From an uncultured Erysipelotrichaceae bacterium (GTDB lineage Bacteria; Bacillota_I; Bacilli_A; RFN20; CAG-826), in assembly GCA_902777015.1 (NCBI GenBank), contig CACYSA010000002.1:1-64000 (forward strand): 64,000 nucleotides of DNA. Reading direction: 5' to 3'. A program made the translations under genes and the position numbers. Below, one piece after another: positions 36,876-64,000 of this stretch. The notes below the pieces were generated by a model. That model saw only the letters and a program-made list of their open reading frames with translations. It did not search any database and was not told the origin of the DNA. Every line of letters begins with the position of its first letter. The first letter of the stretch is position 1.

Positions 36876-38354
36876 ATGAAATGGTGGGTATTGTTAATTA
36901 TCTTAGGAGTGTTCTTAGCGATTTTCTTAGTTATTTTTATCGCTTGCTCCTACACAAAAGCAAGACCAGATGAAGCGATTATGATCTCTGGTTTAGGCAA
37001 AAGAAAAATACTAAGAGGAAAAGCAGGATGGAGAATCCCATTCTTACAAAGAAAGGACCGTTTATCATTAAAGGTTTTCCAGGTCGATATTAAGACGAGA
37101 GAACCAATTCCTACTCGCGAATTCATTAACATCAACGTTGATGGTGTCGCTAACTTAAAGATCTCTAGCGATCCAGAATTACTCGAAAGAGCCTTTGAAG
37201 CCACATTAGGTATGAACCAAGATGACTTAATTGAACAAGTTAAACAAGTTCTTGAAGGCAACATGAGAGAAATCGTTGGCACAGTTGGTATTCGTGAATT
37301 AGTGCAAGACCGTAAAGGTGTCGCTACAAAAGTGCAAGAAAATGTTATTCCAGATATGGGTAAACTAGGTATCGAACTAGTGAACTTCAATATTCAAAAC
37401 TTCTCAGATAGAAACAATGTTATTGAAAACTTAGGTATTGATAACATCTCTCAAATCTCTAAAGAAGCCGCGATCGCTAAAGCAAACGCTGAAAGAGATG
37501 TCAGCATTGCTAGAGCAAGAGCCGCTCAAGAAGCCAATGAAGCAGAAGTTAATTCCAAGACAGTCATTGTTCAAAAGAATACAGAATATGCTTTAAAAGA
37601 AGCAGAATTAAAGATCAAAACAGATACAGCGAAAGCTAATGCTGATGCTGCATATCGCATCCAAGAACAAAAAAGACAAGAAGAAATTAACATTGCCACA
37701 ACAAATGCTGAAATCTCTAAGAGAGAAAGAGAAGTTGAACTTGGTAATAAAGAAGTTGAACTTGCTGAAAAGAAATTAGCGGCAACCATTAATAAGAAAG
37801 CTGATGCTGAAAAATACGCCACAGAAAAAGCTGCTGAAGCTGAACTCTTCAAGAGAAAAACAGTCGCAGAAGCTGAACTTGTTGAAGCTCAAAGAAAAGC
37901 GGAAATCAAGAAAGTGGCCGCTGAAGCTGAAAAGACTGCTCGTGAACAAGCTGCTACAGCCGTTCGTATCGAAGCCGATGCTAATAAAGAAGCAGCCTTA
38001 ATGGAAGCTCAAGGTATCGAAGCTAAAGGAAAAGCGGAAGCCGACGCCATCAAAGCCAAAGCTGAAGCTATGGAACACTACAATGATGCTGCTAAATTGA
38101 AATTAATCTTAGAAAGCAATGTCTTACCAGAAACAGTCAGAGCTTACAGTGAACCAATCGCTGCCGCTCTTGCCCAAATCGATGGCATTACAATGTACGG
38201 TGAAGGTAATGAAGCTAAATTAGTTTCAGAAATTCAACAACATGGTGATCAAATCTTTGCCGGTCTTAATAAGACATTAGGCATCGACCTTAAATCAGTC
38301 TTGCTCGGTTACTTTGGTCAAAAAGTAATTAGCGATAAGAAAGAGAGCAAGTAG
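36876..38354 (+). CDS. flotillin / SPFH-domain membrane scaffold protein
   Basis: 492 aa. One N-terminal membrane segment (WWVLLIILGVFLAIFLVIF), an SPFH/band-7 domain at about 30-210 (ARPDEAIMISGLG, NFNIQNFSD) and a long Ala/Glu/Lys-rich coiled coil at about 215-420 (EAAIAKANAERDVSIARARA), ending with a flotillin C-terminal domain. It resembles YuaG/FloT and eukaryotic flotillins; it organises membrane microdomains as oligomers. No NfeD partner gene is adjacent. Confidence 0.9.
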   Translation: MKWWVLLIILGVFLAIFLVIFIACSYTKARPDEAIMISGLGKRKILRGKAGWRIPFLQRKDRLSLKVFQVDIKTREPIPTREFININVDGVANLKISSDPELLERAFEATLGMNQDDLIEQVKQVLEGNMREIVGTVGIRELVQDRKGVATKVQENVIPDMGKLGIELVNFNIQNFSDRNNVIENLGIDNISQISKEAAIAKANAERDVSIARARAAQEANEAEVNSKTVIVQKNTEYALKEAELKIKTDTAKANADAAYRIQEQKRQEEINIATTNAEISKREREVELGNKEVELAEKKLAATINKKADAEKYATEKAAEAELFKRKTVAEAELVEAQRKAEIKKVAAEAEKTAREQAATAVRIEADANKEAALMEAQGIEAKGKAEADAIKAKAEAMEHYNDAAKLKLILESNVLPETVRAYSEPIAAALAQIDGITMYGEGNEAKLVSEIQQHGDQIFAGLNKTLGIDLKSVLLGYFGQKVISDKKESK

Positions 38355-60525: not shown

Positions 60526-62808
60526 ATGAAAAGCAATTTAAAAAAATCATTAACGTTATGTTCAGTCTTACTATTATTCGCTTTAGTGGGCTGTTCATCT
60601 AATAATCAAAGTTCACATCAACCAGCGGGTAATACATCAAACGGAGCACAACAAGCTTCATCCGTTATTACTGGTGATGATCCAGTTGATGGAGTTTATC
60701 TAAATTATGAATCATTAACAATGTATGTTGGTAAAAGCGCAACATTAACCGCGACTGTATCTCCAGAAACCGCGAGAAATAAAAATGTTTCTTGGACTTC
60801 AAGTAATACGACAGTAGCAACAGTCACTAATGGAACAGTTAAAGCTTTAAAAGAAGGTACATCAATTATTACAGTAACCACTAGTGAAGGTAACTATACC
60901 GCAACATGTGCATTAACAGGCATCGCGGAAGAAGATGCCACTCCATATGTGCCAGATGATACTGATTCTTCTATTTATCAAATTACTGAATCAACATTAT
61001 CTAAAGGAACATATGATTCCACGAATGATGAATATGCATTCGCTATTAGTCAAAACTATAAGCAAATCTATGTTAACGCTCCAGAAAAAACTATCATTTT
61101 AGAGCTTAATGGTGTGACTTTAGAAAACAACGCTAATTCACCAATCTATGTTGAAGATTGTGATGGCATTGAAATATCCGCTAAAAAGGGTACGACCAAT
61201 AACATAAAGGATACCCGTTCCGCTTATATTACTGATGAAGAAGGCCAAGGTAAAGGTGCTATCTTCGTTAATAACGGCGATCTAAAACTTAAAGGAACAG
61301 GGACATTAAATATCACTGCTAATTATCTAAATGGTATCCACGGCAAAGATGATGTTAAGATTCAAAAACAAACATTAAATATCACCGCGGTTAATCATGG
61401 TGTAAGAGGTAACGATAGTGTCACTATTGTCTCTGGCGATATCAATATCTCCTGTGGTGGTGATGGCTTACATACTGAAAATAGTGATATCTCTTCTAAA
61501 GGTAACCAAAGAGGTGATGTTACTGTTCAAGGTGGTAACTTAACGATCAATTCTTGGGGTGACGCTATTCAAGCAGCGCATGATGCGATTATTGAAGAAG
61601 CAGATGACACTGTACCAACAACATATGTTGCTAAAACAAATAAATATTCATCCTATAGTGGCACAACACCCACAACTAGTACATCTAATTTCTATCTCAA
61701 GATGAATTCATCTACCTATTCACAAGGTAATTATAGCTATGCTGCATTAATTGATGGAAATTGGTATCCAGCGACATATAAAGGTACACAATCTGGTGGT
61801 GGCGGTATGGGTGGCCCTGGTGGCGGCGGTGGCCCAGGTAGTAGTTCCACATATTATATCTATCAATTAGAAAAACCAGTAGGTGCATCAAGTTTCACCT
61901 TATATCGTTATCAAGGTAAGAGTGTGACTTCTTATTCCACTGAAACATATAACGCGAAGAGTGACGCTAAAGCATTCAACAGTGCTTATGATATGGTACA
62001 AATCTCTGTTAGTAGTTCTAAGATCAATTTCTCTAGCTGGAGCAATTATTCTTCTGGTAACACTAATGGAGCAGATGTTTCCGCTAAAGGTATCAAAGCG
62101 GAAAACGAAATCTACGTTAAAGCGGGTACTGTTAACATCAAAGCCTATGATGATGCTATCCACGCTAATAATGATGGCACATTAGAAAACGGTAGTTCCC
62201 CACTTGGTAATATCGTTATCAGTGATGGCGATCTCACCCTTGAAGCTAGTGATGATGCAGTCCATGCTGATAATCAATTAACAATCTCTGGTGGTAAAAC
62301 AAATATCGCCTCAGCATATGAAGGTTTAGAAGGCAATGTCATCAACGTCAGTGGCGGTGAAACATATGTCTACGCAACCGATGATGGTGTTAACGCTACA
62401 TCAGGTAAAGCAAGTCCTGCAATTAATGTCAGTGATGGCTTCTTAGATGTTGAAGTTCCTGCTAGTGGCGATACAGATGGTATCGATAGCAATGGTAACT
62501 ATACCCAAACTGGTGGTGTAGTCATTGTTAAAGGCCCAGGCAGTGCTTCTGGAGGTGGTGGCGGTGCCGCAGCTTTAGATACTGATGGTAGTGTCTCCTT
62601 AAAGAACTGCACATTAATTGTCTATGGTGGTATTGAAAGAACACCAAGTGCATCTGGTCTCACAAAGACTATTTGCTCATCTAATACGGTAAGTACTGGT
62701 TCACACACTGTTTCTTTCTCAGGTGGTACCAGTTATACAACAACACTAAAATCATCAACAAGAGGATGCCTAGTCTATAGTGCACTAGGAAATGCCACTC
62801 TTAAGTAA
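60526..62808 (+). CDS. carbohydrate-binding beta-helix surface lipoprotein (Cthe_2159-like)
   Basis: 760 aa. Signal ends LVGC (Cys23). A Big2 Ig-like domain (about 55-138: LTMYVGKSATLTATVSPETA) is followed by a right-handed beta-helix of the Cthe_2159 type with repeated acidic turns (GDGLHTENSDI, DDAIHANNDG, DDAVHADNQL, DGIDSNGNY). These likely bind calcium and acidic polysaccharide. A Gly-rich insertion (GGGGMGGPGGGGGPGSSS, about 425-442) interrupts the helix. It belongs to the VTC/DUF4956 cluster. Surface adhesion or polysaccharide binding is likely; enzyme activity is not indicated. Confidence 0.8.
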   Translation: MKSNLKKSLTLCSVLLLFALVGCSSNNQSSHQPAGNTSNGAQQASSVITGDDPVDGVYLNYESLTMYVGKSATLTATVSPETARNKNVSWTSSNTTVATVTNGTVKALKEGTSIITVTTSEGNYTATCALTGIAEEDATPYVPDDTDSSIYQITESTLSKGTYDSTNDEYAFAISQNYKQIYVNAPEKTIILELNGVTLENNANSPIYVEDCDGIEISAKKGTTNNIKDTRSAYITDEEGQGKGAIFVNNGDLKLKGTGTLNITANYLNGIHGKDDVKIQKQTLNITAVNHGVRGNDSVTIVSGDINISCGGDGLHTENSDISSKGNQRGDVTVQGGNLTINSWGDAIQAAHDAIIEEADDTVPTTYVAKTNKYSSYSGTTPTTSTSNFYLKMNSSTYSQGNYSYAALIDGNWYPATYKGTQSGGGGMGGPGGGGGPGSSSTYYIYQLEKPVGASSFTLYRYQGKSVTSYSTETYNAKSDAKAFNSAYDMVQISVSSSKINFSSWSNYSSGNTNGADVSAKGIKAENEIYVKAGTVNIKAYDDAIHANNDGTLENGSSPLGNIVISDGDLTLEASDDAVHADNQLTISGGKTNIASAYEGLEGNVINVSGGETYVYATDDGVNATSGKASPAINVSDGFLDVEVPASGDTDGIDSNGNYTQTGGVVIVKGPGSASGGGGGAAALDTDGSVSLKNCTLIVYGGIERTPSASGLTKTICSSNTVSTGSHTVSFSGGTSYTTTLKSSTRGCLVYSALGNATLK

Positions 62809-63197: not shown

Positions 63198-63231
63198 TTG
63201 CAATAAAAATTAAATAAGCGCATACTATAAT
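63198..63231 (+). promoter_or_regulatory. promoter of the large structured RNA
   Basis: A perfect TATAAT (63226-63231) lies at the exact border between AT-only spacer and the structured region. TTGCAA (63198-63203) is upstream but 22 nt away; if TACTAT (63223-63228) is used the spacing is 19. Start of transcription expected near 63237. Confidence 0.55.
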
Positions 63232-63342
63232 AACCCACCCGGGAAACCGAGTGAGTGAGATAATAAGAATTGATAGATTCTTATATCTCAAGACCAGGTA
63301 AATCAGTCAACGCAGGCAGATAAGTTGATAACGCGTTTCTGA

Positions 63343-63647
63343 GATTAAAGAAAAAGCTCAGATTAATGATTGTACTGGCAGATTGGTACTTGTATCAATC
63401 AAGGGCAATTCCTCCCTGCTACAGTGGATGCTGAATTAGAGTTTGACAGCGTAAAGCCACCGCCCGACACGATCGAAGAGGAAGATGAAGGCCAATAACC
63501 CATCAAACACCCCACATTCAGGCTAAAGCAACTCAAAACCTGAAATAAGTTAACTGGTCAGTAATGGCACAGATAATGAATGGGCGAAAACTTAGCCTTA
63601 AAAATAAGACGATCACCACTAAAACGACGTTGATAGTAAGGCTCCAG
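63343..63647 (+). repeat. structured RNA unit 1
   Basis: Begins at the GATTAAAG loop (63343-63350) closed by CTGAG (63339-63343) / CTCAG (63357-63361). Contains core 63411-63470 with TTCCTC (63409-63414) / GAGGAA (63478-63483), GTGG (63424-63427) / CCAC (63457-63460), GCTG (63430-63433) / CAGC (63447-63450), and a further hairpin TTCAGG (63517-63522) / CCTGAA (63539-63544). AGGCTAA (63520-63526) could alternatively pair with TTAGCCT (63592-63598). Confidence 0.7.
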
Positions 63648-63960
63648 GATTAAAGATTCTGGTTAATGATCGCAAAAGGCTGGAAATCCGCAAGGAAATC
63701 CAAACGGCAAACCTCCCTGGTAACAGTGGTCGCTGAGTTAGAGCTTAACAGCGTAAAACCACCGCCGGACACAAAGACGAAGAGGGAAAAACAAAGCGAG
63801 TTAAAGAAAACTTAACCGCAAAGCCTAAATCGTATTACTCAACCTAACGTGCGATGATAACGGAGAGAACCCAGCAAGGAAATCCCGTGAAGAAAAGGCC
63901 TAGAGAGCTTAAGACTAGATAAGTCAACCATCTCCATTAACTGATTATGGAGTATCGAAG
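63648..63960 (+). repeat. structured RNA unit 2
   Basis: Begins at the second GATTAAAG (63648-63655) closed by CCAG (63644-63647) / CTGG (63659-63662). Core 63712-63772 with CCTC (63712-63715) / GAGG (63782-63785), GTGGT (63726-63730) / ACCAC (63758-63762) and CGCTG (63731-63735) / CAGCG (63749-63753). Near its end CTCCAT (63932-63937) pairs with ATGGAG (63947-63952). Confidence 0.7.
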
Positions 63961-64000
63961 GATTAAAGAGCCATCGTTAACTGGTTGCGCTAGCAAAGAA
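63961..64000 (+). repeat. structured RNA unit 3, cut by the window end
   Basis: The third GATTAAAG (63961-63968) lies in a hairpin CGAaGG (63955-63960) / CCaTCG (63971-63976) with one A-A mismatch, followed by GTTAACTGGTTGCG, matching GTTAATGATCGCA of unit 2 and GATTAATGATTGTA of unit 1. Confidence 0.6.

Follow-up and report, generated by a model that had tools for sequence, protein, structure and literature searches.

The window analysed here comprises positions 1–64,000 of contig CACYSA010000002.1 (contig C2 of its genome) from an uncultured Erysipelotrichaceae bacterium, and its last 765 bases make up the initial three-quarters of an RNA gene that ends some 276 bases further along the contig. 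In contig coordinates this RNA extends from approximately 63233 to 64276, that is over some 1,045 nt (about 1,050), without a reading frame. The initial annotation, made from the letters of the window alone, had described a non-coding region of at least 765 nt reaching position 64000, and the contig shows that this position truncates the feature. The TATAAT box that it had placed upstream is likewise present and overlaps the -10 element of a promoter (Table 1). In the alignment of 38 homologous loci described below, the TTG of the -35 element and the -10 box are kept, and many of the loci retain the 17-nt spacing to CATAMT. Downstream of the RNA, a GC hairpin followed by a T-tract forms an intrinsic terminator, and a terminator-like structure is found in 37 of the 38 homologues. 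Also in agreement with the initial annotation, a search for a reading frame in the 38 homologues returned longest stop-free runs that match those of shuffled sequence (medians of 86 vs 82 aa). A protein-coding or decayed gene was rejected on the grounds that no frame exceeds the shuffled length and that the bases covary as pairs, and a chance or simple repeat was rejected by the existence of homologues.

Table 1. Features of the RNA gene. Positions are those of the window, continued on the contig beyond 64,000; RNA position 1 corresponds to window position 63229.
Feature	Position	Strand	Remarks
Promoter	63198..63226	+	From sequence; -35 TTGCAA 63198-63203, 17-nt spacer, -10 CATACT 63221-63226
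TATAAT box	63226-63231	+	Overlaps -10 CATACT
RNA, part inside window	63233..64000	+	Remainder runs to ~64276 on contig
5' leader cap	63257..63289	+	GAGAT 63257-63261 pairs with ATCTC 63285-63289 (first entry strand) around P0b
Hairpin P0b	63265-63282	+	99.6% paired; both-side changes in 6/7 pairs
Domain A (module 1)	63285..63583	+	Module profiles, monophyletic A clade, helices
Domain B (module 2)	63588..63900	+	Module profiles, B clade, helices
Domain C (module 3), first third in window	63905..64000	+	Profiles, clade, helices; core outside window
Core of domain A, RF02946 cow-rumen-1	63421..63481	+	80.1 bits, E 1.9e-17
Core of domain B, RF02946 cow-rumen-1	63723..63785	+	79.1 bits, E 3.6e-17
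Core of domain C, RF02946 cow-rumen-1	64049-64108	+	72.5 bits; outside window
PK-A1 5' strand	63439..63444	+	Core loop of A; RNA positions 211-216
PK-A1 3' strand	63588..63593	+	Entry strand of B; RNA positions 360-365
PK-A2 5' strand	63741..63746	+	Core loop of B; RNA positions 513-518
PK-A2 3' strand	63905..63910	+	Entry strand of C; RNA positions 677-682
PK-A3	64067-64071 with 64205-64209	+	RNA positions 839-843 with 977-981; 3' tail closes last domain; outside window
PK-B1 5' strand	63323..63327	+	AGTTG; 96.3% paired, nearly invariant, little covariation in domain A
PK-B1 3' strand	63529..63533	+	CAACT; loop of hairpin P4 (63518-63543)
PK-B2 5' strand	63629..63633	+	GTTGA; 97.9% paired, zero double changes
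PK-B2 3' strand	63839..63843	+	TCAAC; loop of hairpin P4 (63830-63854)
PK-C1	63403..63406 with 63462-63465	+	GGGC with GCCC; crosses P2 (63410-63414 with 63478-63482)
PK-C2	63705..63708 with 63764-63767	+	CGGC with GCCG; domain B

Three segments of the RNA match the Rfam family RF02946 (cow-rumen-1), all of them with scores (72–80 bits) above the Rfam gathering score of 53.4. The initial annotation had reported a 60-nt core occurring twice, 301 nt apart; the two cores are there (starting at 63421 and 63723, 77% identical over 70 ungapped bases), with a corrected spacing of 302. It had also pointed to the loop sequence GATTAAAG, which does occur three times, at 63343, 63648 and 63961, the intervals being exactly the stated 305 and 313 nt. 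By itself this 8-mer is weak (13 matches in the window vs 5.2 expected); its register with the repeat is not due to chance, as cow-rumen-1 matches both cores with E ~1e-17 and a third core follows just past the window. Over the remaining ~860 nt, relaxing the cut-off to E <= 1 brought up no Rfam family other than an archaeal-type snoRNA model, whose sub-threshold match (18.7 bits) was rejected as chance, and neither a tRNA nor any other Rfam family was found. The Rfam model is 61 nt long, whereas the gene described here measures ~1,045 nt and holds three different cow-rumen-1 domains. The databases cover only a 61-nt piece of this RNA: its core is present in Rfam, but the repeat and the rest of the RNA are not known there.

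The structure was examined in an alignment of 38 three-unit RNAs of ~1,050 nt with a mean identity of 68%, two of which (L062 and L063) are incomplete at the 3' end. Under a tree-preserving null, a simplified version of that of R-scape, 28 column pairs lie above G = 40 where 0.2 are expected. A hand-curated model comprises 169 pairs in 34 helices, pseudoknots included; its pairs are formed in 97.1% of cells vs 27–41% when the partners are slid, a control that is somewhat flattering for this percentage because the model was partly derived from the same sequences. That derivation does not explain the double changes. Both sides change in 110 of the 169 pairs, as opposed to 59.6 in shuffles and 16–35 upon sliding by 1–3 columns; the covariation scores are 0.375 for the model, 0.163 for shuffles and at most 0.084 for slid partners. 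The folding energy of the single sequence is only modestly low (z -2.2). The large, internally repeated structured RNA that had been proposed from the window is supported by these homologues, both in its modelled pairs and in the covariation among them.

All units share one layout with a constant order of parts, in which an entry strand is followed by P1, P2, P3 and P4. P1 is an outer stem with a GTTGA-type internal strand, P2 pairs CCTC with GAGG and encloses the cow-rumen-1 hairpins (P3), and P4 is a hairpin with a TCAAC-type loop. These parts are further connected by three kinds of pseudoknot. PK-A is formed between the loop of one core and the entry strand of the following unit, and compensatory changes are seen at all three equivalent places. 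At PK-A1, columns 282/484 (RNA positions 213/363) are A-U in 24 and G-C in 14 of the 38 RNAs, with none unpaired, and columns 283/483 are C-G in 20, U-A in 16 and U-G in two; at PK-A2, columns 653/845 are G-C in 28, A-U in eight, and G-U and U-A in one each. Since no core precedes the first entry strand, the 5' leader takes the partner role there, and this pairing exceeds every one of 200 shuffles. In PK-B the loop of P4 pairs with the GTTGA-type strand inside its own unit. Its strands are nearly invariant in domains A and B, so that covariation is uninformative in these two, and in domain C (63939–63944 with 64160–64165) both sides change in three pairs. PK-C is a crossing of two core helices, across P2. 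All four of its pairs are formed in 33 of 38 RNAs in domain A, which is not clearly above shuffles (mean 28, maximum 34), and in 37 of 38 in domain B (shuffled maximum 32), where the variants CGGC/GCCG, AGGC/GCCT, GGGT/GCCC and CGGT/ACCG occur; in domain C this pseudoknot is nearly invariant.

The Rfam consensus stems GUGG/CCAC and GCUG/CAGC hold in this RNA. The three innermost base pairs by which Rfam extends the core hairpin, however, conflict with PK-A, which covaries better, and in domain C one of the three is a C-U mismatch in 34 of the 38 RNAs. Moreover, the cow-rumen-1 model does not include the upstream strands that complete helix P2 and PK-C. Besides the paired regions there are long invariant unpaired stretches, for example ATCGGTACG at RNA positions 791–799 and AAGAAGCATCACCAG at 955–969. 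Judging from the comparative evidence, the RNA almost certainly folds into three homologous, pseudoknotted domains of ~300 nt that are linked through PK-A.

The tandem units of ~305 nt described in the initial annotation stand as a three-fold repetition, but they are not free tandem copies; they are differentiated domains in the order A-B-C, or A-B-A-B-C in some genomes. Unit profiles classify all 38 three-domain RNAs as A, B and C in order. In a tree, the A, B and C units each fall into one clade (29, 30 and 27 units with support of 0.77, 0.99 and 1.0), from which it follows that the triplication is old and that the copies have not been homogenised. For five-unit RNAs from three genera (L072b, L056 and L048, the first unit of L048 being cut by the contig end) the profiles give A-B-A-B-C, and because the longer RNAs of all three genera run in this order we infer a domain grammar of (AB)nC with n = 1 or 2. 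The PK-A pairing extends to these longer forms: the inner A units of L072b and L056 carry the entry strand CTTAAGAC, with which the B core loop before it could pair, and the 5'-terminal A unit instead carries CTCAAGAC, which pairs with the leader. In the tree, the two B units of L048 are each other's closest relatives, while the first AB pair of L056 is closest to L078, from another genus, and the second to the kind found in the window (L003/L036). It seems that these five-unit forms had separate origins, and the mosaic composition of L056 suggests that different RNAs were joined rather than simply duplicated. Arrays of two or four units were not seen, bar contig-end cases or misses of the quick profile (in L052 the quick profile gave two units vs three by the Rfam model), and since repeat-rich genes break assemblies, the number of domains counted close to a contig end is a minimum.

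Five further loci of the family (L049, L050, L059, L069 and L080) carry one diverged core; in two of them, L050 and L069, the end of the contig is close, so that adjoining units could be missing. The PK-A pairing is compensated in these single-unit forms as well, with GGACT/AGTCC in L049, L059, L069 and L080 and GAGCT/AGCTC in L050. L059 and L069 lack both the GTTGA strand and the TCAAC hairpin, a joint absence as expected if the two strands of PK-B pair. Beside single-domain RNAs of three genera a basic conserved protein of 105–112 aa is encoded in convergent orientation (L080:3577-5303, L059:4293-4610, L049:1404-1628), and in L080 a TIR-domain gene lies on the other side of the RNA. This protein, which has no Pfam match, was rejected as a partner of the single-domain RNAs because homologues occur in 37 other genomes; among the loci fetched around its best matches, only three carry the RNA.

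Several loci depart from the one-gene arrangement. Two genomes hold two tandem RNA genes on one contig with one or a few genes between them (L072:4255-7960 and L079:4269-6757), and in another genome inverted copies of the RNA (L062 and L063) sit at both ends of one contig (G124:C2). In L063 the 3' tail is unlike that of every other copy, which may reflect a broken copy or an assembly join.

The RF02946 model matches 44 of the 224 genomes of the host's GTDB-style family, spread over 10 of its 35 genera and nearly always as three matches ~300 and 320 nt apart; among the good genomes of the family the RNA is present in 20 of 119. No match was found among 279 genomes of the other families of the order, nor among 395 genomes that sample the class evenly. 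A model of our own for the 138-nt core region recovered the identical 44 genomes and likewise gave no match outside the family in the order and the class sample. A scan of a wider collection returned 34 stretches, 31 from gut Bacilli assemblies and three from proteobacteria, the latter probably being chance matches. The named records are uncultured Bacilli or Erysipelotrichaceae assemblies, many labelled rumen, reticulum or omasum, with cattle relatives, goat, yak, deer and reindeer as hosts, and all genomes concerned are metagenome assemblies. Present in only this part of the family, the RNA must be dispensable. A phage or plasmid element was rejected in view of ordinary neighbours and because no viral match (IMG/VR pattern scans), phage-record match or plasmid match was obtained. 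With its matches limited to the family, it is a chromosomal RNA of accessory character that belongs to a single family of ruminant-gut Bacilli.

The nearest genes encode ordinary metabolic, transport or surface proteins, mostly of chromosomal kind, and synteny is conserved only within genera. Across genera no recurrent neighbour family was found, the downstream genes differing in family and strand, and neither phage nor defence families are enriched near the RNA loci. No tRNA lies within the window or in the downstream 8 kb. In RNA-negative members of the genus an empty site was not demonstrable, as those genomes do not retain the flanking genes side by side. The terminators and the ordinary neighbours that do not recur make this a stand-alone gene; comparison of the loci shows it with its own promoter and terminator, as would befit a discrete transcript unit. 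As its position reveals no genetic partner, a cis-regulatory leader becomes less likely and a trans-acting or structural RNA more so.

Some observations on the surroundings of the window's RNA may be recorded separately. A defence island was rejected, PADLOC matches being scattered single cases that include AbiE in the window's own genome. There, a type IV toxin–antitoxin pair (DUF6088/AbiEi and AbiEii) follows the RNA, and behind it stands a second copy of the last 69 nt of the RNA with its terminator, 94% identical (L003:3255-3323); the two together span L003:1619-3323, equal to contig C2 64418-66122. A near-identical relative, L038, is without both the AbiE pair and the second 3'-end copy, as if the 3' end of the RNA had served as a recombination site. 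Two related Cthe_2159-like carbohydrate-binding lipoproteins flank the RNA locus (window 60526-62808 and L003:6019-7833). A strong A-over-T skew at 37–38 kb, resembling the one in the RNA, is ordinary and stems from the gene of a flotillin-like coiled-coil protein (window 36876-38354).

On balance, we favour the reading that the locus encodes a free-standing, trans-acting structural RNA of ~1,050 nt composed of three homologous pseudoknotted domains of ~300 nt. The comparison of homologues shows that each core loop docks the entry strand of the next domain through PK-A and thereby links the domains head to tail. Both ends are capped, the first domain by the 5' leader, which stands in for the missing core loop, and the last by the 3' tail. 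The result could be a rigid directional chain or partial ring, its length set by the number of AB pairs. Such an RNA might act as a scaffold or RNA-based particle on which conserved single-stranded motifs (such as GACANGATCGAAGAGG) are displayed repeatedly to protein, RNA or a ligand, a role that we put forward tentatively. With similar reserve, it may be regarded as a repeat-domain RNA, the counterpart of a solenoid or repeat protein, with domains of ~300 nt, a fixed inter-domain helix, A and B domains in alternation, a cap at the 5' end, a capping C domain at the 3' end and growth by AB pairs, which would have been added in one genus by duplication within the RNA and in others, apparently, by combining different RNAs into a mosaic.

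In behaviour its closest counterparts are OLE, ROOL and GOLLD, which have been seen by cryo-EM as RNA-only oligomers held together by kissing loops and A-minor contacts, ROOL and GOLLD being located in phages or prophages near tRNA islands (PMC12286853). Like ROOL and GOLLD, the RNA described here is a very large, ornate non-coding RNA with pseudoknots and loop–loop contacts, and ROOL too is known from rumen samples; with OLE it shares being a large stand-alone structured RNA of Bacillota that is chromosomal and presumably has a transcript of its own. It is nevertheless unrelated to them in sequence, since no covariance model of ROOL, GOLLD or OLE matches at E <= 1 over the whole RNA locus, and HEARO and raiA likewise give no match at E <= 1. 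In addition, it is without the link to phage, prophage or tRNA arrays in the scans made, and to our knowledge neither ROOL nor GOLLD consists of homologous domains in tandem. In OLE, which is not known to contain internal repeats, the gene neighbourhood with OapA is conserved, whereas no neighbour recurs here.

These analogues invite the view that the RNA forms an RNA-only homo-oligomer of their kind, in which several 1-kb chains, held by kissing loops, build a cage or dimer; the tandem domains would then be a covalent version of what OLE, ROOL and GOLLD achieve between chains. Comparable size and ornateness, the lack of an obvious protein partner and the PK-A contacts between domains would be consistent with it. 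We consider this unlikely, however, for all recurrent long-range pairs are satisfied within one chain, the leader and tail close both ends so that no obvious sticky end is left, and the RNA has neither a sequence relation to these families nor the phage link of ROOL and GOLLD.

Somewhat less probable still is a multivalent protein-binding RNA, a sponge or regulator that holds one protein copy per core in the manner of CsrB or the type III antitoxin RNAs. The highly conserved core, repeated with invariant unpaired bases, and the variable number of units, three or five, could be understood in this way, and ToxI and its relatives also consist of tandem pseudoknotted units in one transcript. ToxI units, however, measure ~36 nt and lie upstream of toxN, whereas the units here are ~300 nt, multi-pseudoknot domains that far exceed known sponge repeats, and no ToxN-type or other toxin family, nor any other protein gene, recurs beside the RNA. 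The units are furthermore differentiated and strictly ordered and never form a plain array.

Ribozyme activity or ligand binding by three related active domains might account for the long invariant unpaired stretches, but such invariance fits tertiary packing too, and as the RNA is without a cleavage or splicing layout and has no exon-like or metabolic gene theme nearby, we regard this explanation as improbable. Finally, that it serves as a cis-regulatory, riboswitch-like leader, as its position upstream of a gene in some loci could imply, is very hard to sustain given an intrinsic terminator after the RNA in 37 of 38 loci and next genes that are unrelated and differ in family and strand.

Taken together, the free-standing structural RNA that we favour would enlarge a group of which only few members have been described, as large ornate bacterial RNAs are few and mostly without an assigned function, and we know of no other bacterial RNA with a modular grammar of the form (AB)nC. 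What had been a 61-nt database orphan turns out to be one building block of an RNA of ~1 kb. Its one-, three- and five-domain forms in these ruminant-gut bacteria constitute a natural series on the evolution of large RNAs by domain duplication, the same series bears on whether the docking of domains via loop pairing builds defined RNA architectures, and the inter-domain helices are open to direct tests by compensatory mutation.
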